Assembly (NCBI GenBank): GCA_014240065.1
Contig: JAAZXR010000046.1
Span: 1 to 32,879 of the forward strand
Direction: 5' to 3'
DNA length: 32,879 nt
From: Myxococcales bacterium
Lineage (GTDB): Bacteria > Myxococcota_A > Polyangia > Nannocystales > Nannocystaceae
A program made the translations under genes and the position numbers. Under the pieces are notes generated by a model. It saw only the letters and a list, made by a program, of their open reading frames with translations. It ran no database searches and was not told where the DNA came from. This document shows, piece by piece, positions 7,193-28,362 of this stretch; position 1 is the stretch's first letter; every line of letters starts with the position of its first letter.

Positions 7193-8719
7193 TTACAGCA
7201 ACCGACGCTGTCGTGGGAGCGCCGGTTCAGGTCCAAAACTGGCGAGGTAGGCCTTCAATTTCAATTTTCGCCGTGTGGAGTCTGAGGACATGTAGCGGAC
7301 CTTCCCAAAGATCGAACGCTCGGGACCCCACGCTCGATCATAGCGACCGAAGGTCCAAAACACCCCGCTGTACGAGTTCGGATCCCGCCCGTCGAGGGCC
7401 CATCGGTTGTTGAGGTGCAAGAGGCGTTCTAACGCGACCCGCGGCGACGGCGACCACTCCAACACCTTCTTGCCCCACAGCATCCGCAGGTAGTTGTGGA
7501 TCCGACCTTCTCGTTGAAGCTGTCGCTGCGCGGCGTTCCACACCTCGTCGTGGGTCTGTCCCGCCTCCAAGGTCTCCAGCGGGTACGCGCTCGGACGCAC
7601 ATCGTCGGCGTGCGCAGCCAACGTCTTTTGGGCCCACGCCGGCAGCGACTCGTATCGATCATAGCTGTGCGGACGCCCCACACACATATTAAATCCAAGC
7701 TCGCGCCACGTGACGATTTGATCGAGGAAGCTCTCCGAGGCCGACGGGAGCCCCCACCACCCTCGCCTCGCGCCCCGCGTGTCTTCCCCGAGTCTCCCTG
7801 GCGTCCAATCCGCCGCTCGCAGCACCCGGTGAACCACCTCGTGCGCCGAGACCACGCCAAAATGCAAGTACGGAGAAAGACCGCTCGCGGCCTCTTGCTC
7901 GGCGTCGTTGCGGTGCTCCGCATACCGGGGCAGCCGCTCCGCGAACAACCGCTCCACCGCCGCTGCGCCGGCCCGGGCGCCTCCGGAGGTTTCGACGGCC
8001 GCGACTGCGTGGTCGATCTGGAGCGCGGACACCGTCGCAGGGATCGAACACCCAGGGTCGTGCCGCCCCCAACGAGTCCCCGAGAGCGGATCAAACGACA
8101 GCGCTGGGAGCCTCAGCTCTTTCAGCGGGTCTTCGTGCGGCGCCGCCGCCAGGTGGGGTGCGAGGTGTTTTTGTAAGAACGCCCGGAAACTGTGGGCGGT
8201 GGTGAACACACGCTCCGTCGACCTCATCGGGAAGATGCCGTTGCCATCGACAGTCTCCAAACGGACCGGGAGTCGCGGGGCCACCGAGGCGACCGCGCGA
8301 GGCAAAAAGAACGCGGGGTAGTCGTCGGTCACGATGACGCAGGCGCGCCTCGCGAGATGCTCGAGCAACCCCTGCCCCTCGCCTGGCGCTGGCTCGACGT
8401 AGGGCAGGTAGGACACCGCGGCGGTGGCCAGGCGTTCGTCCTGCTCCCTCATTCCCTGCAAGAGGAAGGTGTGGTGTCGGTCAGACGCCCATCGATACCC
8501 GCAGCGAACAGCCTCGAACACGAGCAGCGGTCGTTGGAGGCGCCGCGCGTGCTCCGCCGCCCGTTGGAGCGCGAAATTCCACCGGGTCCTCCGCGCCGCC
8601 ATCACCCAATACAGCACGTACGCGCCGTCCTGGGAGATCGGCGCGTCGTTGACCATGACCACTCGCGACGCGGGTACCGCTGACACAGGGGAAGTGTAGC
8701 GAGGCCCGCGCAAACGCAA
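7193..8719 (-). CDS. phr: Class II CPD deoxyribodipyrimidine photolyase
   Basis: About 500 residues. The N-terminal photolyase alpha/beta domain has YVLYWVMAARR and VIVTDDYP. The C-terminal FAD-binding helical domain carries class II hallmarks: LDQIVTWRELGFN, RIHNYLRMLWGKKVLEW, LNNRWALDGRDPNSYSG and FGKVRYMSS. The enzyme uses blue/near-UV light and FADH- to split cyclobutane pyrimidine dimers in DNA. The TTG start at 8719 is chosen because GAGGTGGG lies 6 nt upstream; the ATG at 8656 is an alternative that would still keep the whole domain. It is divergent from the tail-anchored protein gene and followed by the glycosyltransferase gene. I saw no recognisable light-responsive operator. Confidence 0.9.
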   Translation of the reverse strand: MRLRGPRYTSPVSAVPASRVVMVNDAPISQDGAYVLYWVMAARRTRWNFALQRAAEHARRLQRPLLVFEAVRCGYRWASDRHHTFLLQGMREQDERLATAAVSYLPYVEPAPGEGQGLLEHLARRACVIVTDDYPAFFLPRAVASVAPRLPVRLETVDGNGIFPMRSTERVFTTAHSFRAFLQKHLAPHLAAAPHEDPLKELRLPALSFDPLSGTRWGRHDPGCSIPATVSALQIDHAVAAVETSGGARAGAAAVERLFAERLPRYAEHRNDAEQEAASGLSPYLHFGVVSAHEVVHRVLRAADWTPGRLGEDTRGARRGWWGLPSASESFLDQIVTWRELGFNMCVGRPHSYDRYESLPAWAQKTLAAHADDVRPSAYPLETLEAGQTHDEVWNAAQRQLQREGRIHNYLRMLWGKKVLEWSPSPRVALERLLHLNNRWALDGRDPNSYSGVFWTFGRYDRAWGPERSIFGKVRYMSSDSTRRKLKLKAYLASFGPEPALPRQRRLL

Positions 8720-9740: not shown

Positions 9741-10697
9741 GTGAAGCCGCAGCGCAGCACCGCCGAGCGCGTCGCCATCTTCGTGCTCGCCTACACCGTC
9801 CTCGTCATCGTGTTCGGGGCGTGGGTTCGCATCACCGGTTCCGGCGCGGGCTGCGGACAGCATTGGCCGACCTGCCATGGAGAGCTCCTCCATCGCCCCG
9901 AGTCGACGGAGACCATGATCGAGCTGACCCACCGCGTCACGTCCGGCGCAGCGGGCTTGCTGTCGTTGCTGCTGTGCGTGACCTCGTTCCGGATCCGCCC
10001 GATCTCCCGACCTGCACGACTCGGCGCGTTGTTGAGCGTGGTCTTCATGATCACCGAGTCCCTGATCGGGGCCGGAATCGTTAAATTTGAGCTCGTCGCC
10101 GACAACGCCAGCGTAGAGCGGGCGCTCGGGATCTCCGTTCATCTCGTCAACACCTCGCTGCTGACGGCGGCGCTGGCCCTGGCCGTCTGGGGCGCGCAGG
10201 GCCGCAGCGTGCGCGACGATCCTGATCGGGTCAGCCTGGCGCTGGCCCTCGTCGCCTGCGGCGTCACGCTCATGGTGATGACGACGGGCGCGGTGACCGC
10301 CCTGGGAGACACCCTGTTCCCACCGGAGAGCGACCTGAGCGCCCTCGCTGTCCTCGCGCGCGACCACGCCGCTGGCGCGCACCTGCTCGAGCGAACCCGC
10401 GGGGTCCACCCGATGCTCGCGGTGGTCGGTGCCCTGGTCCTCATCCTCACCATGACGAAGATGGGAGAGCGTGCGGACACCGGATCGACCCCTCGCCTAT
10501 GCCGCCTCATGATTAAGTTGGTCCTCGCCCAAGTCGCGCTCGGCCTGGTCAACATCTGGATGTCCGCGCCCGGCTATCTGCAGCTGATGCACCTCGGCCT
10601 GGCCACCGTGTCGTGGATCGCCCTGTGCTTCGCCACGCTGAGCCTGCTCGAACGAGCGCGTCACGCCGTGAACCCGCCGACGACATCCGCGCAGTGA
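9741..10697 (+). CDS. ctaA: Heme A synthase (CtaA/COX15 family)
   Basis: A 318-residue integral membrane protein with about eight helices. It oxidises the C8 methyl of heme O to the formyl of heme A for aa3-type cytochrome oxidases. It has the conserved loop VRITGSGAGC with a Cys pair at C38/C45 (CGQHWPTC), the helix-2 motif E61-x-x-H64-R (ELTHRVTSG), and later histidines in SVHLVNTSLL, GVHPMLAV and LMHLGLA. The start is GTG with no ribosome site. No protoheme farnesyltransferase or oxidase gene is adjacent. It ends 4 bp from the convergent exonuclease gene. Confidence 0.9.
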   Translation: MKPQRSTAERVAIFVLAYTVLVIVFGAWVRITGSGAGCGQHWPTCHGELLHRPESTETMIELTHRVTSGAAGLLSLLLCVTSFRIRPISRPARLGALLSVVFMITESLIGAGIVKFELVADNASVERALGISVHLVNTSLLTAALALAVWGAQGRSVRDDPDRVSLALALVACGVTLMVMTTGAVTALGDTLFPPESDLSALAVLARDHAAGAHLLERTRGVHPMLAVVGALVLILTMTKMGERADTGSTPRLCRLMIKLVLAQVALGLVNIWMSAPGYLQLMHLGLATVSWIALCFATLSLLERARHAVNPPTTSAQ

Positions 10698-10701
10698 GGC
10701 G

Positions 10702-11748
10702 TCACTCGGTCAGCAACGCGCGCGCCCGCCGATAGATGCGCGCGGTCGCCTCGACGTCACCGACGTTGTACTCAGCGATTCGCTCGATGTCCCCCCGCGC
10801 GTACGTGGGGGCCACCATCGACCCGTCCATGTCCCCCTTCGGCGAGGTGATTCCGAGGGCCCAGCAGACCACGTCAAGGCTCGCCGGACCGCTCGCTCGA
10901 AACGCCCCGGCCCGCCCCACGAGCGGCAGCAGATCCAGATGTCGCTTGTTCGAGCGCGCCAACAAATCGACTCGGACCGGGATGTTGTGCACGAGGCTCC
11001 TCGCCACCAAAAATGGGACGTCGAATCCCCGGCCGTTGTAGGTGACCACCCTCGACGCCTGACTCGCCAAAAACCAGAACGCTTCGAGGAGCTGCGGCTC
11101 GCTCATCGGCCGGATCCACGGGGGAAACTCCGCGTCTGCGCGTCCCTCGGGTGGGACCACGAGCGCTGTCACGGGCATGGCCTCCTCCCCCGCCTCTCCG
11201 TCGCCAACGGCGAGCGAGACGATCTTCCCGAACCACGGCGACAGGCCCATGACCTTGGCCTCTTCGGACTCGCTGCGGTCCGCGTGCTTGGTCACAGCCT
11301 GCGCGATGGTCGGCGGCACCTTGCGCAGATCCGTGTCTGGCACGGTCTCAATGTCGAAGACGAGGCTCTCACAGCGCAGGTCGGCCGCGCGCTCGTATCC
11401 CGCGCCCAGCAACACCCGAAGGTCCGCCTCCCCCTCCGCTGCCCGCCGGATTCTGCTTACGACGAGCTGTTTCGCGCCGCGATAGTCGTCGAGCGCGAAC
11501 CGAATCTTCACGACCGCGCCGTCCTCGAGCGACCGCATCGCGCCCATGGCCTCTTGTGCGTCGTCCCAGACTTTCACGGGGAAGCCGCCGCTCGCGTCGA
11601 CCACCTCCGCGTCGAAGAATGGCCGCCCCGCGCGCGTCACACCGTCACGCACCGCGCGGAGCACCGCGAACGCAGTGCCGCGGAACTCCCCCGCGCGCGC
11701 CGTCTTCAGGTCGGCTAGCTGTTCGATGTGCGTGTCGTTGACGGCCAT
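10702..11748 (-). CDS. OB-fold plus DEDDy 3'-5' exonuclease-like protein
   Basis: A 348-residue protein. Residues about 20-102 look like an OB nucleic-acid-binding fold (FRGTAFAVLRAV, FFDAEVVD, FPVKVWDD), as in the N-terminal domain of YhaM-type exonucleases. Residues about 128-345 form a PolB-exonuclease-like RNase H fold: motif I FDIETVPD (131-138), motif II TYNGRGFD (236-243) and motif III Y327-N-V-G-D331. This gives the four acidic residues plus Tyr of a DEDDy exonuclease, with two-metal 3'-5' degradation expected. DNA or RNA preference is unknown. It is the last gene of a leftward set, 12 bp after the Imm33-like lipoprotein gene. Confidence 0.78.
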   Translation of the reverse strand: MAVNDTHIEQLADLKTARAGEFRGTAFAVLRAVRDGVTRAGRPFFDAEVVDASGGFPVKVWDDAQEAMGAMRSLEDGAVVKIRFALDDYRGAKQLVVSRIRRAAEGEADLRVLLGAGYERAADLRCESLVFDIETVPDTDLRKVPPTIAQAVTKHADRSESEEAKVMGLSPWFGKIVSLAVGDGEAGEEAMPVTALVVPPEGRADAEFPPWIRPMSEPQLLEAFWFLASQASRVVTYNGRGFDVPFLVARSLVHNIPVRVDLLARSNKRHLDLLPLVGRAGAFRASGPASLDVVCWALGITSPKGDMDGSMVAPTYARGDIERIAEYNVGDVEATARIYRRARALLTE

Positions 11749-11760
11749 GATTCAGACTCT

Positions 11761-12561
11761 TCACTTCGGCGCACCGAGAGCGGTCTGCCCCCGCGTGCTG
11801 AACTCGGCGCCCCCGCGTGTCACCGCGCTCGCCGGGGACGCGCGCACTCCATCCTTCCAAATCACCTGGTCGGAGGAGTCCATGACCATATGGGGCGCGC
11901 CGCTGCGATAAAAGACGAGGTAGCCCGGAGGGAGGGTGAGGCTGGACAGGAGCTCTGGGCGGCGGCGATAGACCTCGTAGATAGGCACGCTCTCGATGGT
12001 CCCGGCGTCGCTCTCCGCGTGGGGGTTGACCATCCGCCATCCGCTCATGCGCCCCCCAGGCGACGCCACCCGAAAGAGCATGACCTGGTCCGAGCTCCAG
12101 GCGTCCGAGGACACCAACATGTGTTGATCGTACTGAACCTCCGACGACTCCACCGCAATTTTCGAAAGGAATGAGCGCTGCGCTGCGTCGATTTTCAATG
12201 AAGCAGAGATCTCCGGGCGGCCCCGGCTCTCCGTCTCTCGTTCGTAGTCGGGCTCCCACACCTCAAGCCTCCCGCGCACCAGCTGCAACGAGAATGTCGT
12301 CCAGCCATACGGCACCTCGACGCCGTCGACGAGCTCGATCCCCCGTCGGCTGAGTTCGCGAAGATGCGCGAACAAGAGCTCCACTTCGTCCGTCAGCAGC
12401 GGATCACATCCGATGACGATCCGAGCGCCACCGATCTGCCGCGTAAACCTGTCCTCCTCACCGCCAACAATGACGACGTTGAGGGCCGGGCGCCGGGCGC
12501 ATGAGGTCAGCGTGGACGCCTGGAGCAAGCAGACGGCCATGATCGCGAGCGCCCCCCTCAC
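11761..12561 (-). CDS. Imm33-like (DUF2185) lipoprotein
   Basis: A 266-residue protein. The GTG at 12561 overlaps the upstream gene's stop (GTGA), and the product then begins VRGALAIMAVCLLQ with a lipobox LTSC (Cys21). The preceding in-frame codons are read through the upstream gene and do not look like a signal. The body carries features I associate with two-part Imm33/DUF2185 proteins: a conserved W, WEPDYE, a Q, SGW (MSGWRMVNPH), YEVYRRRPELL and LTLPPGYLVFY. Imm33 proteins were named as predicted immunity proteins of polymorphic toxins, but no toxin lies nearby. The family match is from memory of motif order and is not certain. It sits between the pseudo-ATPase and the exonuclease. Confidence 0.6.
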   Translation of the reverse strand: MRGALAIMAVCLLQASTLTSCARRPALNVVIVGGEEDRFTRQIGGARIVIGCDPLLTDEVELLFAHLRELSRRGIELVDGVEVPYGWTTFSLQLVRGRLEVWEPDYERETESRGRPEISASLKIDAAQRSFLSKIAVESSEVQYDQHMLVSSDAWSSDQVMLFRVASPGGRMSGWRMVNPHAESDAGTIESVPIYEVYRRRPELLSSLTLPPGYLVFYRSGAPHMVMDSSDQVIWKDGVRASPASAVTRGGAEFSTRGQTALGAPK

Positions 12562-13700
12562 GCGCGGCCCTCCGCGGAGTCCGGGGCGAACGAGACCCTG
12601 GCGCGGGTCCACTCCCACTTGAAGCCCTCCACCCGGCGCGGCGGCGCGGCGTCGCGTTCGTCTTGCACGACCACGGCCATCGCCTCAGCCCCCGCGGTCG
12701 TCGCGCCGTCTTCCCCGCGGGTGAGGTCGGAGCGCGGCCGGCCTGAAGCCACGATGGAGAGCCCCGCGCGCACCAGGCCCTCCTCCCTCGCGCGCTGAAA
12801 CGTCGCCGCGCCGCGGGCGCAGCGACACGCCGCCAACACGATCCAGCCGCGGCCGCGCGCGGTCCTGAGCAGCTGCATCAGCCACGCGCTCTCTCGCTCG
12901 GCAGGGACGCTCCCGGCGTCTTGGTATCGCTCCCACACCGCCAACCCCGTCAGCGCGAGGACCAGCTGCCCGCCACCCTCCGAGTCAGCGGCTGTCCACC
13001 GATCGAGGTCTCGGACAAGCTGCTCGAGGAGTTCATCTCCGTACATGATCTTCGGCGCGACGTGACAAAGACGCGAACGCCAGGCCTCCTCTACCGCGGG
13101 ATCGACAGCCCCCGCCTGTGCGTTCTGGCCGCGGAGTGTCTCCAAGGCAGCCCCGCCCCAGCGCCCGCGCCGTCGCGTGAGCAGGTCATCGGCGCCGGCA
13201 CCGTGCAACACGACCGCCCGCGCCCCCGCGCCGCCGCTGAGGTCTTGAACCTCGGGAGTGGCGACCGCGAGCGCCTCTGCGATTTGAACGACGAGGGCGT
13301 CGGCGACGCCTCGCCGATCAGCGTCGACCGCGATGACGTCCCCCGGGCGAACAGCCCCGATCACCGCGTCGACCTCGGGTCCAACCCCAGCACCGCACGG
13401 GCTCCCATCAGGCCACCCTGGGAGCGCGCCGATCCGCAGGCCGCGTGCGTCCGCCCTCCGCCCGCTCTCCGAGGATGAGCGCAGCAACCCACCATCCTCG
13501 CGAAGCTCGACGTGAGTCAGACGCGCGAGATCTTCTGGTTCGAACCATTGCTCGTCGGGATCGGCCGATTCCAGCGCCTCCAACTCGTCGCGCACCTCCG
13601 CCGCGACGTCTTCGATCGCCGCGCGATGCAAGCGATCAACGAGCGATCTTGGATCGTCCTCGTCGCCGGCGGTTTTCTTATGGGGATCAGGCGCGACCAC
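12558..13700 (-). CDS. RecA/DnaB-fold pseudo-ATPase
   Basis: 380 residues from the GTG at 13700. A longer frame to 13904 would run into the divergent parA-like gene and encodes an unconvincing N-terminus. The N-terminal part is acidic and helical. From about residue 100 the order of elements follows RepA/DnaB/Rad55-type ATPases: G-x-E-V-D-A-V-I-G, then PGDVIAV, then a helix VVQIAEALA. The P-loop position reads DADRRGVAD instead of GxxGxGKS, with no Lys or Ser/Thr. The Walker B position reads LVLALTG with no Asp, and the later strand ends LAACR rather than in a sensor His. It closes with FKWEWTRARVSF, like the last strands of that fold. I infer a non-hydrolysing homologue. It overlaps the next gene by 4 bp. 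Confidence 0.55.
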   Translation of the reverse strand: MVAPDPHKKTAGDEDDPRSLVDRLHRAAIEDVAAEVRDELEALESADPDEQWFEPEDLARLTHVELREDGGLLRSSSESGRRADARGLRIGALPGWPDGSPCGAGVGPEVDAVIGAVRPGDVIAVDADRRGVADALVVQIAEALAVATPEVQDLSGGAGARAVVLHGAGADDLLTRRRGRWGGAALETLRGQNAQAGAVDPAVEEAWRSRLCHVAPKIMYGDELLEQLVRDLDRWTAADSEGGGQLVLALTGLAVWERYQDAGSVPAERESAWLMQLLRTARGRGWIVLAACRCARGAATFQRAREEGLVRAGLSIVASGRPRSDLTRGEDGATTAGAEAMAVVVQDERDAAPPRRVEGFKWEWTRARVSFAPDSAEGRA

Positions 13701-13759
13701 GACCCCTAAACTACCGCAGGATCGCGCGAAGCGCCTCTTGGAGTGAACTTGCGGAAAAA

Positions 13760-13788
13760 TTGGCGTGTGGAGGGCAATCCCGTAGCTT
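13760..13788 (+). promoter_or_regulatory. Promoter of the parA-like gene, probably leaderless
   Basis: TTGGCG (13760-13765), a 17-nt spacer, and TAGCTT (13783-13788) form a sigma70-type pair. The hexamer ends 6 nt before the ATG at 13795, so transcription would begin at or next to the start codon. No Shine-Dalgarno sequence is present. Confidence 0.55.
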
Positions 13789-13794
13789 CGACGC

Positions 13795-14430
13795 ATGATC
13801 GCGGCGTTCATTGGACTGAAGGGAGGCACCGGAAAAACCTGTCTCTCGCTGGCGACGGCGGCCTGTGCCCAAGACGACGGGGCCAACGCGCTGCTCGCGG
13901 ACACCGACCCCTCGGGCCTCGCGACCTGCTGGCGACCGGATGGATTCTACGGCTGCGTCGCCTGGCCAAGAGGAGACTTCTCCGGTCTGACGGAGACCAC
14001 CCGTGGCGTCGACTTCGCGTCCATCGACATCGCGACCGGCGACTTCGAGACGATTCGCGCGGCCGCAGGCGTGGCGAACGTCCTCGTCATCCCGTGCCTC
14101 CCGTCGCCCCTCGACGTGCAGTGCTGCGCGACCCTCCTCGACGCGCTGGAGTCACGCAACATCCCCGAGCGATGCCCGGTGCGGGTGCTGCTGAATCGCG
14201 TCGACCTGCGGACATCCTTAGGGCAGCGGGCCCAATCCGATCTCCAGGCGGCCGGGTTCCCGATGCTCGAGACGGTCGTCGGAGATCGAGTCGCGATGAC
14301 GGATGCGCTCGCCCGCGGCGAGTTCCCCAACCGCGCAGACACGCTGTTGCAACGCGAGCTTCGCGGCCTGCTCGACGAGCTCGAGTCGGTCACCCAGGGC
14401 ACGTTCAGCGCGGCGACCGTGGCTCACTAG
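13795..14430 (+). CDS. ParA-type (MinD/ParA superfamily) ATPase
   Basis: 211 residues. Deviant Walker A KGGTGKT at 9-15 with the signature Lys9, Walker A' ADTDPSGLATCW (35-46), a Walker B-like strand FASIDIAT, VLVIPCLPSPLDV, and VLLNRVDLR near the nucleotide-specificity region. These proteins dimerise with ATP on DNA or membrane to position plasmids, chromosomes or protein complexes. It is short for a chromosomal Soj/ParA (about 250) and close to the ParF/VirC1-like size class. No parB or parS-like repeats are visible nearby, so it is an orphan. It is transcribed away from the pseudo-ATPase operon, with 94 bp between the two starts. Confidence 0.85.
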   Translation: MIAAFIGLKGGTGKTCLSLATAACAQDDGANALLADTDPSGLATCWRPDGFYGCVAWPRGDFSGLTETTRGVDFASIDIATGDFETIRAAAGVANVLVIPCLPSPLDVQCCATLLDALESRNIPERCPVRVLLNRVDLRTSLGQRAQSDLQAAGFPMLETVVGDRVAMTDALARGEFPNRADTLLQRELRGLLDELESVTQGTFSAATVAH

Positions 14431-14749: not shown

Positions 14750-16342
14750 TCAAAGACTGACGCCGAGGCGCTTGCAGGTCCGGCGGGCCTTCCCACGCCG
14801 AATGAGCGGCAAGCGACGAAAGGCGCTCTTCGCCTTCGTGACATCCCTCATCCCGCAGGCGGCGATCGTCTCAAGGTACGCCGCCTTGGACCCCCCGTTT
14901 TTCACCGCCCGCGCCAGCCGGTACGCCTTCTTGTAGTTCTTCGCGTCGAACGCGACCTGCGCCTCGCTGAGGCCGCCGCTGCTTTGGGCGCTCGTTGGCG
15001 CGGGAGCGCCGCTCGAAGCTGTCCCGGGGTCTTTCGGCGCGGCCTTCTTTGCCCGCTTCCGAGCGCGCCGCGAGGGTGCCTTGGCAGGCGCCTGTTCCGT
15101 CGTGTCGCCGGTCGTGTCGCCGGTCGTGTCGCCGGTCGTGTCGCCGGTCGTGTCGCCGGTCGTGTCGCCGGTCGTGTCGCCGGTCGTGTCGCCGGTCGTG
15201 TCGCCCGTCGTGCCGGTCGCGTCGCCCGTCGTGCCCGTATCGCCCGTCGCGCCCTCATCCCCCATGGAGCCTCCGGTCCCATCGTCCGGCCCGTCGGCGA
15301 GGAGCCCCGAAGGCGCGTGGAGGCCGGCCGTGGTCGAGGCGACGCCGTCATCAGCGTCCTCGTCGTCCCCGCAAGTCGCCACGCCCATCATGACGACAAC
15401 CGCCACGGCGGCGGCGGCGATGACCGCGGCCTTCAGGCCAGAGCTGCCTCCCTCGGACGCGTCCGTCGAGGTGGTCGTCGGGGCGCCCGCGGTCCCCGTC
15501 AATTCCCCGGCAAGCTCATCCACCAACGAGGCCGAGTCGGCCTCCGGGACCGAGGCTGCGTCGTCCGCTGCGGGGGCATCGGCGCCTCCGCGCGACACGG
15601 CGGCGATGGTTGAATCCGAAATTTCCGCGGCGCGAGTTCCCGCGATGGAGGCGACATGCCCAGGCGACGGCAGCCGCCGCGACCCAGAGGACGACGCGCT
15701 GGCGGAGGATTCCTCCGACCGATCTTCGGACTCCGACTCGGCCGCCGCACGCTGTGGCGCCGACGACTCGGCCGCGTCCGTCGTCGCAGGGTCGTCGCCC
15801 GCGGCGCCGCGCGCGTTCGCGACGCCCTCCGCGTCTTCGGTAGCGTCGGGACCTGGAGCGTCGTCCTCTCGGACGGAGGGGGCCGCAGCCGCGGGCGTGT
15901 CTTTCTCAGGACCGGAGGGGGTCCTGCCCAGATTCAGCGGTGGGAGCCCTAAGCCGCTGCCGCTCGCCAAGAGCGGGCTGGTCGCAGGGGGCGGCGCCTC
16001 GTCGGCGGCCCCGCTCGATGCCGTGTTCTGTGGCGCCGCTGAGGGCGCCGGCGTCGCACCACCACGTCGGCGTCGCGGCGGCGGTGGCCCTTTGGAAGGG
16101 GGGCGCGGCCGCGCGGGTGTCAGGTCCGCGAGCAGCTCGTCGATCTCGAGCAGCTCGACTTCTTCGCCCGAATCCGCGTCCGCATCGTCGCCGCGGATGC
16201 TCGGCGCCTTGTTGGTCTTCACCGCCATCTTCCGCAAGCTGGCCAGACTCCCCTTACTCCCCGCGCTCGAGCTGGCGGACGGGTCTCGCGCCCCCGCGTC
16301 TGCCCGCCCTTTGGGCGGCTCGTTCTCCTCTCCAGTTCCCAC
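14750..16342 (-). CDS. Single-pass low-complexity protein with TTGD repeats and TPR-like C-terminus
   Basis: About 530 residues. The start is uncertain: the GTG at 16342 is taken here, with TTG at 16384 and ATG at 16228 also in frame. A long Ala/Ser/Pro/Asp-rich N-terminal region contains an acidic patch (EEVELLEIDELLADL). A single membrane helix follows near residue 310 (AAVIAAAAVAVVVMMGVA). Then come a Thr-Gly-Asp tandem-repeat linker, a Lys/Arg patch, and a folded end of about 75 residues (LSEAQVAFDAKNYKKAYRLA, then AACGMRDVTKAKSAF) that resembles the short TPR-like tails of myxobacterial signalling proteins. No enzyme domain is seen. It is embedded in the nqr operon between apbE and nqrM, but nothing in its sequence shows a role in Na+-NQR. 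Confidence 0.75.
   Translation of the reverse strand: MGTGEENEPPKGRADAGARDPSASSSAGSKGSLASLRKMAVKTNKAPSIRGDDADADSGEEVELLEIDELLADLTPARPRPPSKGPPPPRRRRGGATPAPSAAPQNTASSGAADEAPPPATSPLLASGSGLGLPPLNLGRTPSGPEKDTPAAAAPSVREDDAPGPDATEDAEGVANARGAAGDDPATTDAAESSAPQRAAAESESEDRSEESSASASSSGSRRLPSPGHVASIAGTRAAEISDSTIAAVSRGGADAPAADDAASVPEADSASLVDELAGELTGTAGAPTTTSTDASEGGSSGLKAAVIAAAAVAVVVMMGVATCGDDEDADDGVASTTAGLHAPSGLLADGPDDGTGGSMGDEGATGDTGTTGDATGTTGDTTGDTTGDTTGDTTGDTTGDTTGDTTGDTTGDTTEQAPAKAPSRRARKRAKKAAPKDPGTASSGAPAPTSAQSSGGLSEAQVAFDAKNYKKAYRLARAVKNGGSKAAYLETIAACGMRDVTKAKSAFRRLPLIRRGKARRTCKRLGVSL
15099..15206 (-). repeat. 12-bp tandem array encoding Thr-Thr-Gly-Asp
   Basis: Nine near-perfect copies of a 12-bp unit (plus strand GTCGTGTCGCCG) give TTGD repeats on the minus strand. 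Degenerate copies (GATGTTGD, GATGDTG) lie on the 15207-15250 side. The low divergence between copies indicates recent expansion by slippage or unequal exchange. The unit is a multiple of three, so length changes alter only the linker. There are no unique spacers, so it is not a CRISPR. Confidence 0.92.
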
Positions 16343-16392
16343 CAGTCGAGCATAGCAAATGCAGCCGAACCGGTGCGCGCCCAAAGCCGCGA

Positions 16393-24743: not shown

Positions 24744-27014
24744 ATGGACATGCGAGCAGGCCGCGTCGCGGGGCGTCGCCGTCAATCGACCACAAATCGA
24801 CCGGTTTCAAGAGACCGATCCACGGGCCTGCTGGTGTCCGTGCTCGACGATCACGACACCGTCGCATTGCTGCACGCCATGGGCTACGACGCCGCGCAAA
24901 TTCGTGCCGGGGTCGAGGAGGTCGAGGCGACGCACGAAGAGCGATTCGATCGCGAGCCCGTTGACTGGCATCAGCGACTCCTGCAGCGCGGCTTCAACCC
25001 CCAAAACCCGGTAGATTCTCTACTCGCCATCGCGCGCAGCGCAGACACACGCGCGTATCAAGCGCTTGAATTCAGCGGTGTCCGGGTGGCGAGCCTGCGC
25101 AAGGCGCTCGTCGAGCACGCCCGGCGCAGCCCGATCACGCCCGGAGATGACAGCGAGCGACGGCGACGCGCGTCTCCCGTCGGAGCAGGCCGCCGCCACG
25201 ACGGTGCCGACCCCGACGCCGCCGCCCCCCGCCGAACCCGCAGGGGGCGCGCGGACGCGGTGTCGAAGTCAGCTCCTGCTCGCGATGTCGACGCGGCGCC
25301 TCGACGCCGCCGCCAACAATCTCAAGCGCGGTCGGAGGCGGCGCTGGCAGCCCACGACCTGCTCGTCCCCGTGGAGGTCGATGGACTCGCGCCAATTCAC
25401 GGTCGAGACACGGAGCTCGGGAACCTCGGAGACGCCCTCATGCGCGCGGCTCATCGCGCCCCGGTGCTCGTCGGCCCCCACGGATCGGGGCGGACGCTCG
25501 TCGCGCGGCACCTCGCCGCCGTCGTCCCCTCCCCTGTCTACGTCCTCGACGCCACCGAGTACGGCGACGAGGAGCAGCTCCGGGCCGACCTGCAGCAGGT
25601 CGCCGACGCCCACGGCGTCGCCATCTTCGACGACATGGACCGGATCGCCAGCGAGACGTCGCCGCTGTTCTTGCCGGCGCTGGCCCACGCGTGGGCCCAC
25701 GCGTCCCCCAGAGTCCTCACCATTGTGAGCCACGAGACGAAGGCCCAGCTCGAGGCGTGGATGCCGGGCGTGCTTGAGAGCCTCGACGTCATCGACATGG
25801 GACGCACGAGCCCCGGCGACCACGCGCAGGCGCTTGAGCTCGCCGCACCCGGGGTGCTCTCGCGCCATGATCTCTCCTTGGACCCGGACTTTCACCTCAG
25901 CGAGCTCAGCCGCATGAGCGAACAGTTCGTGACCGGCCTCGCCATGCCCGGACGCGCCATCGACGTCCTCGACCTCGCGTGCGCCCGTGTGCGTCGCACC
26001 GGCGCCACCGAGCTCTCGCGCGAGCTGTGCGTGCAGGTCATCTGCGAGCGGACGGGGCTGCCGGTCGCGCGCGTCTCCGGCGCCGGAGATCAAGACGCGC
26101 TGGAGCTCGAGTCGGAGCTCTCGCGCAGCGTCGTCGGACACGATCACGCGCTGCAGACGGTGGCGGACCTCATCCGACGGAACCGGGCCGGGTTTCGGAG
26201 CGGTCGCCCGATCGCCACGGCCCTGCTCCTCGGCCCGTCGGGTGTCGGGAAGACGGAGATCGCGAAGGCGCTCGCGGGCGCGCTGTTCCACCGAGAGGAC
26301 ACGCTCTTGCGGCTCGACATGAGCGAATATTCAGAGTCGCACGCCGTCGCGCGGGTGGTCGGCGCCCCTCCCGGCTATGTCGGCCACGAGTGCGGCGGCG
26401 CGCTCACCGATCCCATGCTCAAGCAGCCACACCGCGTGGTCTTGCTCGACGAGATGGAGAAGGCCCACCGCGACGTCCACCAGCTGTTGCTGCAGGTCTT
26501 TGACGAGGGCCGCCTGACCGACGGGCGCGGGAGGACGGTGGACTTTCGCCACGCGGTCGTCATCATGACCTCCAACCTCGGCGCGAGCGTCCTCGACGCA
26601 GACACCCGCCCCCCCAAAGACGACGTGCTCGCGCTCGCGCGCGCCGCCTTCCCGGTGGAGCTGTGGAACAGGATCGAGGCGCCCCTGGTCCTCAACCCCT
26701 TGAGCGAAGCGGAGATGCGGCAGGTGCTCGTGCGGCTCGCCGCCGCGTCCTCTGCCAAGCTGCACGCAGATCGAGGCATCCAATATGAGCTGTCGCAGGC
26801 CGTCGTAAGTCGCCTCGTTCGCCTCGCCGGTAAGGACGCCGCCTTGGGCGCCCGGCCGCTCCGCCATCTGCTCACGCGCGAGGTCGAGGGATTTTTGGCC
26901 GACGGCATCTTGCGGGGGAAGATCCGCGCGGGCCACCGCGTCAGCGTCGCGCTTGAGCGTGGGCGAATGCGCCTCGACCTCATGCCTCCGGCGCGCTCGC
27001 CAGCAGCCCCTTGA
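24744..27014 (+). CDS. ClpA/ClpB-family AAA+ unfoldase with degenerate first ATPase domain
   Basis: 756 residues. Residues about 34-125 resemble a diverged Clp N-domain (VALLHAMGYDAAQIRAGVEE). Residues 126-200 are an Arg/Ala-rich linker. D1 (about 210-440) has a Walker A of GPHGSGRT (244-251, Arg for Lys) and a Walker B of VAIFDDMDR (Asp for Glu). It lacks the paired Arg fingers expected near 340 (AWMPGVLESL). D2 (about 460-745) is intact: GPSGVGKT (497-504), pore loop GYVGHECGG, Walker B VVLLDEMEKAH, sensor MTSNLG and sensor-2 GARPLRHLL. There is no ClpB middle domain, and no IGF/IGL ClpP-docking loop in the short segment after SNLG. I infer a ClpP-independent disaggregase or remodeller powered by D2. 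Confidence 0.82.
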   Translation: MDMRAGRVAGRRRQSTTNRPVSRDRSTGLLVSVLDDHDTVALLHAMGYDAAQIRAGVEEVEATHEERFDREPVDWHQRLLQRGFNPQNPVDSLLAIARSADTRAYQALEFSGVRVASLRKALVEHARRSPITPGDDSERRRRASPVGAGRRHDGADPDAAAPRRTRRGRADAVSKSAPARDVDAAPRRRRQQSQARSEAALAAHDLLVPVEVDGLAPIHGRDTELGNLGDALMRAAHRAPVLVGPHGSGRTLVARHLAAVVPSPVYVLDATEYGDEEQLRADLQQVADAHGVAIFDDMDRIASETSPLFLPALAHAWAHASPRVLTIVSHETKAQLEAWMPGVLESLDVIDMGRTSPGDHAQALELAAPGVLSRHDLSLDPDFHLSELSRMSEQFVTGLAMPGRAIDVLDLACARVRRTGATELSRELCVQVICERTGLPVARVSGAGDQDALELESELSRSVVGHDHALQTVADLIRRNRAGFRSGRPIATALLLGPSGVGKTEIAKALAGALFHREDTLLRLDMSEYSESHAVARVVGAPPGYVGHECGGALTDPMLKQPHRVVLLDEMEKAHRDVHQLLLQVFDEGRLTDGRGRTVDFRHAVVIMTSNLGASVLDADTRPPKDDVLALARAAFPVELWNRIEAPLVLNPLSEAEMRQVLVRLAAASSAKLHADRGIQYELSQAVVSRLVRLAGKDAALGARPLRHLLTREVEGFLADGILRGKIRAGHRVSVALERGRMRLDLMPPARSPAAP

Positions 27015-28362
27015 GCACCTTCGTCATCACCTCATAGACCTCGCGTGCCGCCCCTTGGAGCTCGTGGGTGTGGCGCTCCACAGCGGCGGCGTCTCCGCGT
27101 GACACCGGGCCCGTCACCCCGGCTGGGAAGCCGAGCCGCGAGAGGTTAAACAGGCTGCTCTCCATGAGCACCGAAATCGCGTCGCGGCCTTGGTCGCCCT
27201 CCACCCCGACCGCGTCCAGCTCCCGCGCGGCCAGCACCCGAAAGGCCCCGACGAAATTTGCAGCGAGGGCGCAGGCGGCGTGGTACCGGACGCGATCGCT
27301 CGCGGTGAGCGCTCCGAGCGCGATCTGTCGAGCGCGGGGGACGATCCGGTCCACGAGCGCCGTCGCTGCGACATCGCCCTCCACCCCGAACGCGCAGCGA
27401 TCCAGCAAGTCCCGATCCACCTCGCGCCGGAGCGCGCAGATGGGATGCAGGGTGCCCACTGAGTTCCCCGCGGCGTGCAGCACCGCGAGCCCTAACTCGC
27501 TGTCTGCCCGAACCGCGCCGGCCCCGTGCAGCACGGGCGTCGTCGGGTCAAGCCCGGCGTTCGCCAGCCGGTCGGCGACCGCCGGGATCTGCGGGTCTCC
27601 CACCAACACCCACACGCCGTCGAGGCGGGTCGACGGGATCGACACGTCGCCAGCCCCGAAGGCGCGCCCGGAAATTGTCTGGACGCCCCACCCCTCCTCC
27701 CGCAGCCACCGCTCGGCGTGTGTCGCGACGTTTCCAGTGCCGATCAAGAGCAGGCTCCCCTTCGTCGTCGTCGCCGCGCCGAGCTGCGCCAGCACGCGGC
27801 GCGGCACCGCCGCTCGCAGCAGCGCGCGCGCGCCCGGGTCATCACGCTCAAGCGCGGCCCGCACCTCTCTGCTTGAAATCTCGGGCAGCGCGAACGCACC
27901 TGACGAGTGTCCGCCCCGGGGCACCACGATCGGGTCGAACCGCCGCTCGATCTCCTCCCACCGATGCCAGCGGGCCGTCTCCTTTGACTCGATAATGTCA
28001 CTCCCAACGACGAGCCGAACGCGGGCGAGCGGCCAGGACCGGGCCACAGCGTGGAGCAGCGCCAAGCTGCTGCCTCGGGGCGCCGCCCCAGCGTCTTGCG
28101 TCGCGTCAAGTCGGCGCTCGATGTCCGAGACCACCACGTCGGGACCGTGTCCGCGCATGGCCGCCCGCACCCACGTCAAGCGGGCCTCAAATGCGCTCAG
28201 CTTTTTCCCCAACGTGTGGGTGTCCGCGGGACACACCACGACCCGGTCTGCCAGGCCCATGGACAACACGTACGACGGCACCATGACGTGCCCGATATGG
28301 GGAGGATCAAAGCTCCCGCCGTAGACCGCGATCGTAGATTGCCTTGTCATGGAGGTGACCAT
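26980..28362 (-). CDS. NadD-DUF2520 fusion protein
   Basis: 460 residues from the ATG at 28362 (ATG at 28350 also possible). The frame stays open far upstream, but that part is only the shadow of the kinase gene. Residues 10-195 are a nucleotidyltransferase of the nicotinate-mononucleotide adenylyltransferase type: GGSFDPPHIGH (HxGH 22-25), RLVVGSDI and ISSREVRAAL. Residues about 201-455 are a Rossmann plus 6PGDH-like DUF2520 protein: LLLIGTGNVA, TLHPICALR, HAACALAANF and GPVSRGD. One polypeptide thus joins NaMN adenylylation (NAD synthesis) to a predicted NAD(P)-dependent dehydrogenase of unknown substrate. Its 3' end overlaps the convergent Clp-like gene by 35 bp. Confidence 0.82.
   Translation of the reverse strand: MVTSMTRQSTIAVYGGSFDPPHIGHVMVPSYVLSMGLADRVVVCPADTHTLGKKLSAFEARLTWVRAAMRGHGPDVVVSDIERRLDATQDAGAAPRGSSLALLHAVARSWPLARVRLVVGSDIIESKETARWHRWEEIERRFDPIVVPRGGHSSGAFALPEISSREVRAALERDDPGARALLRAAVPRRVLAQLGAATTTKGSLLLIGTGNVATHAERWLREEGWGVQTISGRAFGAGDVSIPSTRLDGVWVLVGDPQIPAVADRLANAGLDPTTPVLHGAGAVRADSELGLAVLHAAGNSVGTLHPICALRREVDRDLLDRCAFGVEGDVAATALVDRIVPRARQIALGALTASDRVRYHAACALAANFVGAFRVLAARELDAVGVEGDQGRDAISVLMESSLFNLSRLGFPAGVTGPVSRGDAAAVERHTHELQGAAREVYEVMTKVLKGLLASAPEA

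Follow-up and report, generated by a model that had tools for sequence, protein, structure and literature searches.

A conserved ParA, pseudo-ATPase and lipoprotein gene block points to a small cellular system in part of the Nannocystaceae

Three neighbouring genes encode a ParA-type ATPase, a RecA/DnaB-fold pseudo-ATPase and a lipoprotein with an Imm33-like domain. Next to an ordinary DNA/RNA-trimming enzyme, they stay together in a few related predatory-type bacteria, which suggests a small, as yet uncharacterised system of the cell and not a grouping by chance. Our leading but still tentative reading is that they form one lineage-restricted system, inherited vertically within part of the Nannocystaceae. 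Literature searches returned nothing on this gene block.

Layout and conservation of the block

The window is the whole stretch of DNA analysed here, 32,879 nucleotides from a Myxococcales bacterium. The open reading frames were read directly. Between positions 10702 and 14430, a leftward trio (pseudo-ATPase, lipoprotein, exonuclease) faces away from the ParA-type ATPase. The features are the following:

9741..10697, plus strand: CtaA/Cox15 heme A synthase, outside the module, convergent with the exonuclease and conserved beside it
10702..11748, minus strand: OB-fold plus DEDDy 3'-5' exonuclease, 348 aa, ATG at 11748, motifs intact
11761..12561, minus strand: two-domain Imm33-like lipoprotein, 266 aa, lipobox LTS-C, GTG start
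12558..13700, minus strand: RecA/DnaB-fold pseudo-ATPase, about 380 aa, GTG start, degenerate Walker A
13755..13794, plus strand: promoter-like element TTGGCG-17-TAGCTT, conserved, 6 nt 5' of the ParA ATG
13795..14430, plus strand: ParA/MinD-type ATPase, 211 aa, NF041546 match (E 4.5e-27), PDB matches to ParA/ParF

The tight packing of the three leftward genes, divergent from ParA, had been described before, and it holds. The TGA stop of the pseudo-ATPase overlaps the GTG start of the lipoprotein by 4 bp (GTGA, 12558-12561). A gap of 12 bp separates the lipoprotein end (11761) from the exonuclease ATG (11748). In two genomes, the exonuclease and lipoprotein genes overlap.

In the window and its relatives alike, the block is flanked by CtaA on one side and by the Na+-NQR operon, ApbE and an NqrM-like gene on the other (the NqrM label is a call by eye, without a Pfam match). 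It occupies a stable chromosomal place, fixed in three genera, and not a variable island. SbcCD is inserted near ParA in Enhygromyxa salina, and SbcC is there in Plesiocystis pacifica. In Enhygromyxa, SbcD and SbcC stand beside the block at locus L059 2388-7855. They do not adjoin it in the window or in the Polyangia MAG (G006). Between the NqrM-like gene and ApbE, the window has a gene (14750-16384) whose product contains a long tandem stretch of TGDT/TTGD and gives only a weak TPR-like match.

The four genes keep their order and orientation in E. salina SWB005 (G022), P. pacifica SIR-1 (G007) and the Polyangia MAG. E. salina SWB007 (G015) lacks the pseudo-ATPase and has the lipoprotein inverted, and ParA, lipoprotein and exonuclease are still adjacent. 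This locus (L062 7633-10660) is a natural deletion, with the lipoprotein inverted relative to the exonuclease. A degraded pseudo-ATPase was sought in SWB007 and not found.

We searched 193 genomes of the class with profiles. The full-length pseudo-ATPase was found in only four of them, the window's included, always beside the lipoprotein and the block ParA. The only further match of its profile was a DnaB helicase. The full-length lipoprotein was found only in these four carriers and in SWB007, with distant relatives elsewhere. A phylum sample of 379 genomes left this distribution unchanged. Among 29 genomes of the family, all four pseudo-ATPase carriers fall within the five lipoprotein carriers (hypergeometric P 2e-4, a value that ignores shared ancestry). 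Some of the genomes are MAGs or drafts, and contig stretches were the material used. The window's genus has one other genome in the set (G001), which is 54% complete and shows none of the block genes. The first search, with a single sequence, gave matches in G018 and G041 that the profile did not recover. A distant match in G392 sits, by eye, in a TsaE-like P-loop protein and looks like chance.

The block proteins have diverged to 24-37% identity; nevertheless, the gene order is kept. The genes are open, with dN lower than dS over deep divergence. The pseudo-ATPase is the fastest evolving of them. The earlier note had offered a way to refute the grouping, namely homologues lying apart with no shared neighbourhood. 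We ran this test and found a conserved neighbourhood in the relatives, which argues for a real grouping over a chance one. The note had also looked to co-occurrence in distant genomes or near defence islands. Shared gene order extends over three genera, the carriers all belong to one family, Nannocystaceae, and no defence signature was found.

The ParA-type ATPase and the pseudo-ATPase

The ParA of the window conserves the Walker A motif (KGGTGKT) and both aspartates. Three Enhygromyxa/Plesiocystis copies have replaced the lysine with arginine (KGGTGRT), and the Polyangia MAG shows alanine at the second aspartate. Two of three lineages have lost a catalytic residue in this way. All five block ParAs have another residue in place of the glutamine that follows DxDP. 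In a small tree they cluster together (support 88/91; 90% of bootstrap trees). Domain searches match CbiA/ParA_partition, and the NF041546 match is below the curated cut-off.

This protein resembles the type Ib plasmid and phage partition ATPases (ParF/ParA, NF041546) in size, fold, deviant Walker A and identity (about 30%). However, the block differs from ParF/ParA systems in having no recognised ParB/ParG or centromere, and the catalytic residues are replaced in the relatives. In the window and four related loci, we recognised no gene for a ParB/ParG-type adaptor next to ParA. A positioning ATPase without ParB had been proposed; the ParA-type assignment stands, and no ParB was recognised beside it. 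In most relatives, the replaced catalytic residues make an active positioning motor doubtful.

ParA was also thought to have a leaderless-type promoter. The promoter-like element TTGG-(17)-TAnnnT, 6-7 nt 5' of the ParA start, is conserved in an alignment of five genomes. A strict sigma-70 scan did not list it.

The pseudo-ATPase of the window alone has no significant family match in Pfam or NCBIfam. In its relatives, weak matches to AAA_25, AAA_16 and DnaB_C appear, and a search with the family profile brings up a genuine DnaB helicase in one relative. The predicted model (AlphaFold) has a mean pLDDT of 66 and a pTM of 0.64. Searched against the PDB, its best match is DnaB (E 2.9e-9) with a modest TM-score (about 0.45), and Rad51-type proteins are also matched. 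So is a chain of a Bcs complex, which we take to be BcsE. A RecA/DnaB fold is well supported as a prediction, on a model of medium confidence.

The P-loop (Walker-A) lysine is gone in all four pseudo-ATPases. The loop reads RRGVA-DA in the window, ARGVGRTS and QRGAGRTS in Enhygromyxa/Plesiocystis, and is deleted in the Polyangia MAG. From the alignment, the Walker-B aspartate is also lost in the window and in this MAG. Compared with the DnaB/RadA-type ATPases, the predicted core fold is similar and a weak profile match surrounds the P-loop. In contrast, no copy has a functional Walker A (GxxxxGK[ST]) or the DnaB N-terminal domain, and two have lost the Walker-B aspartate together with the DnaB glutamate position. 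The earlier description of an inactivated RecA/DnaB-fold protein is supported by the lysine loss, the predicted model and the profile match to the helicase. The best-kept part of the protein is an N-terminal motif, WFxxExLAxxSxVEL (WFEPEDLA..VEL in the window). It holds nine of 28 invariant columns (Fisher P 6e-5, for a motif picked after viewing the alignment).

The lipoprotein and the exonuclease

The lipoprotein of the window matches PF24719 (E 1.1e-10; 41.7 bits against a gathering score of 27), and this domain is matched in all five members. The lipobox cysteine is likewise conserved in five of five, in agreement with the first assignment as a lipoprotein. Its model is confident over residues 38-240, and a fold search of the PDB gave no significant match.

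The literature lists Imm33/DUF2185 among the immunity domains of polymorphic toxins (PMC3482391). The block protein shares with Imm33-like (PF24719)/DUF2185 proteins its C-terminal domain. It differs from them by adding a signal peptide, a lipobox and an N-terminal domain, and by having no toxin partner. We recognised no toxin gene in the window or in the related loci. Distant relatives in other families are stand-alone, with no ParA or pseudo-ATPase nearby. Since these have no recognised lipobox, the predicted membrane anchor is specific to the block's lipoprotein among the relatives seen. As a label, "immunity-type" refers here to the domain's name alone and is not supported as a role.

Some Imm33-like relatives are fused to zinc-ribbon or TPR-type N-terminal parts (L093 5411-6214; L115 1474-2280; L086 811-2043). 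No toxin was recognised near these three. This suggests that the domain is not confined to immunity.

The exonuclease matches PF10108 (E 7.7e-18) and has a YhaM-like OB region (2.6e-8). Its catalytic motifs DIET, NGRxFD (NGRGFD in the window) and YNxxD are invariant in 11 members, so its identity as an OB-plus-exonuclease protein is as first proposed. The OB region resembles YhaM and the DEDDy domain, with all motifs present, resembles PolB-exo2 (PF10108). Unlike YhaM, the OB part is fused to DEDDy rather than HD. Sampled class-level relatives match in the nuclease part only.

Of the 29 family genomes, 25 have this gene, in most cases with other neighbours and without ParA, pseudo-ATPase and lipoprotein. 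It keeps the convergent CtaA even in G002, a genome without the block. By this distribution, the exonuclease is a family-wide core gene and not the dedicated module member supposed at first; it is probably a co-transcribed neighbour. On the exonuclease tree, the block carriers need one to three changes. By this phylogeny, the block may have had a single origin, followed by loss in G002.

Possible roles of the block

We tentatively favour ParA, pseudo-ATPase and lipoprotein as one system. The pseudo-ATPase was found only where the lipoprotein and block ParA are present, and the linkage of ParA with the lipoprotein outlasts the rearrangement in SWB007. Some observations argue against it. The lipoprotein is exported and the other three proteins are cytoplasmic, with no inner-membrane protein in the block to link them. 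SWB007 manages without the pseudo-ATPase. Moreover, because the carriers belong to a single family, the linkage could be partly inherited synteny. The genes would then have separate functions, held together by the kinship of their carriers and by a transcript that includes the core exonuclease. The flanking Nqr/ApbE/NqrM genes and CtaA are likewise kept near, and the exonuclease/lipoprotein overlap in two genomes favours retention of such a transcript. Nevertheless, the order is kept despite 24-37% identity, and the pseudo-ATPase is never found alone. We consider inherited synteny unlikely as the whole explanation.

The main rival reading is a domesticated remnant of plasmid or phage replication and partition genes (ParA plus DnaB), working with the exonuclease in DNA maintenance. 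The pseudo-helicase would load on DNA or SSB, ParA would provide a nucleoid tether, and the exonuclease would trim ends. The relationship to DnaB, the best named profile relative outside the module, agrees with this scheme. So do the likeness of ParA to partition ATPases, the OB and DEDDy domains of the exonuclease and the SbcC gene that adjoins the block in P. pacifica and, together with SbcD, in E. salina. However, we recognised no ParB, parS, integrase or other element genes nearby. SbcCD is not beside the block in the window or the Polyangia MAG, the exonuclease stands without the other three genes in most of the family, and the lipoprotein has no role in the scheme. We consider this reading rather unlikely. 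The idea of a repurposed cassette survives as a possible origin of ParA and the DnaB-type protein. Present carriage by a phage or plasmid was rejected. Relatives of the pseudo-ATPase were not found in the phage, plasmid and viral collections, and the viral matches of ParA are ordinary partition-type proteins (about 31%). A new anti-phage or inter-bacterial conflict system, with the lipoprotein conferring immunity, is very improbable. The listing of Imm33/DUF2185 as a polymorphic-toxin immunity domain (PMC3482391) and the presence of a nuclease would fit it. In contrast, there is no PADLOC match (the only hit, to DpdD at 0.014, is at chance level), no recognised toxin and no variable island. 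Viral contigs hold no relatives of the pseudo-ATPase or the lipoprotein, and the distant Imm33-like relatives are stand-alone. A defence locus, one of the first suggestions, is unlikely because PADLOC gives no support and the chromosomal context between Nqr/ApbE and CtaA is fixed. We found no signature of defence, phage or a mobile island at the block.

Orphan ParA-type ATPases serve to position or gate large machines of the cell; every well-studied one has its own adaptor. In the favoured system of ParA, pseudo-ATPase and lipoprotein, the candidate adaptor is a repurposed, engine-less helicase-type protein and the candidate output a surface lipoprotein. ParA would act as a nucleotide-dependent dimer switch. 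The pseudo-ATPase, without ATP turnover, would be its cytoplasmic partner and scaffold, with WFxxExLAxxSxVEL as the likely docking piece. This pair might place or gate an envelope process, in which the lipoprotein would be the outer component. The exonuclease would be an older housekeeping nuclease on the common transcript. A more specific proposal is an undescribed envelope-linked switch of marine myxobacteria. In it, ParA and RecA/DnaB-type proteins that are both losing ATP turnover would become a structural pair that controls an outer-membrane lipoprotein. We regard this as speculative and rather improbable.

In working mode only, BcsQ/BcsE is perhaps the closest mechanistic precedent found. 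There, the partner to which a MinD-class ATPase is tied has a degenerate RecA-like domain, which oligomerises and aids membrane targeting; BcsE binds BcsQ via a GGDEF-like domain (PMC7439463). Like the BcsRQ-BcsE proteins of enterobacterial cellulose secretion, the block pairs a MinD/ParA-class (SIMIBI) ATPase with a degenerate RecA-like partner, and BcsRQ-BcsE is a cytoplasmic regulator of an envelope process, which we count as a likeness. The block differs in having a lipoprotein instead of the GGDEF-like domain, BcsR, BcsA/B or cellulose genes. The partner here stands as a separate protein, which is DnaB-like and has an N-terminal motif of its own. Membership in the BcsQ/BcsE system was rejected, since a domain search of the block loci recognised neither the GGDEF-like BcsQ-binding domain nor bcs neighbours. 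If the proposal is true, the block would join BcsQ/BcsE as the second clear case in which a ParA-class ATPase works with a RecA-fold partner that has degenerated. Catalytic residues decaying in parallel in the two proteins would then be a testable example of ATPases turning into scaffolds.

Two further genes of the window, both on the minus strand, are unusual. At 26980-28362, a single frame of 460 aa appears to fuse a nicotinate-nucleotide adenylyltransferase-type domain with DUF2520. At 7193-8719, a photolyase-like protein with weak domain scores is possibly a divergent or degenerate cryptochrome/photolyase.
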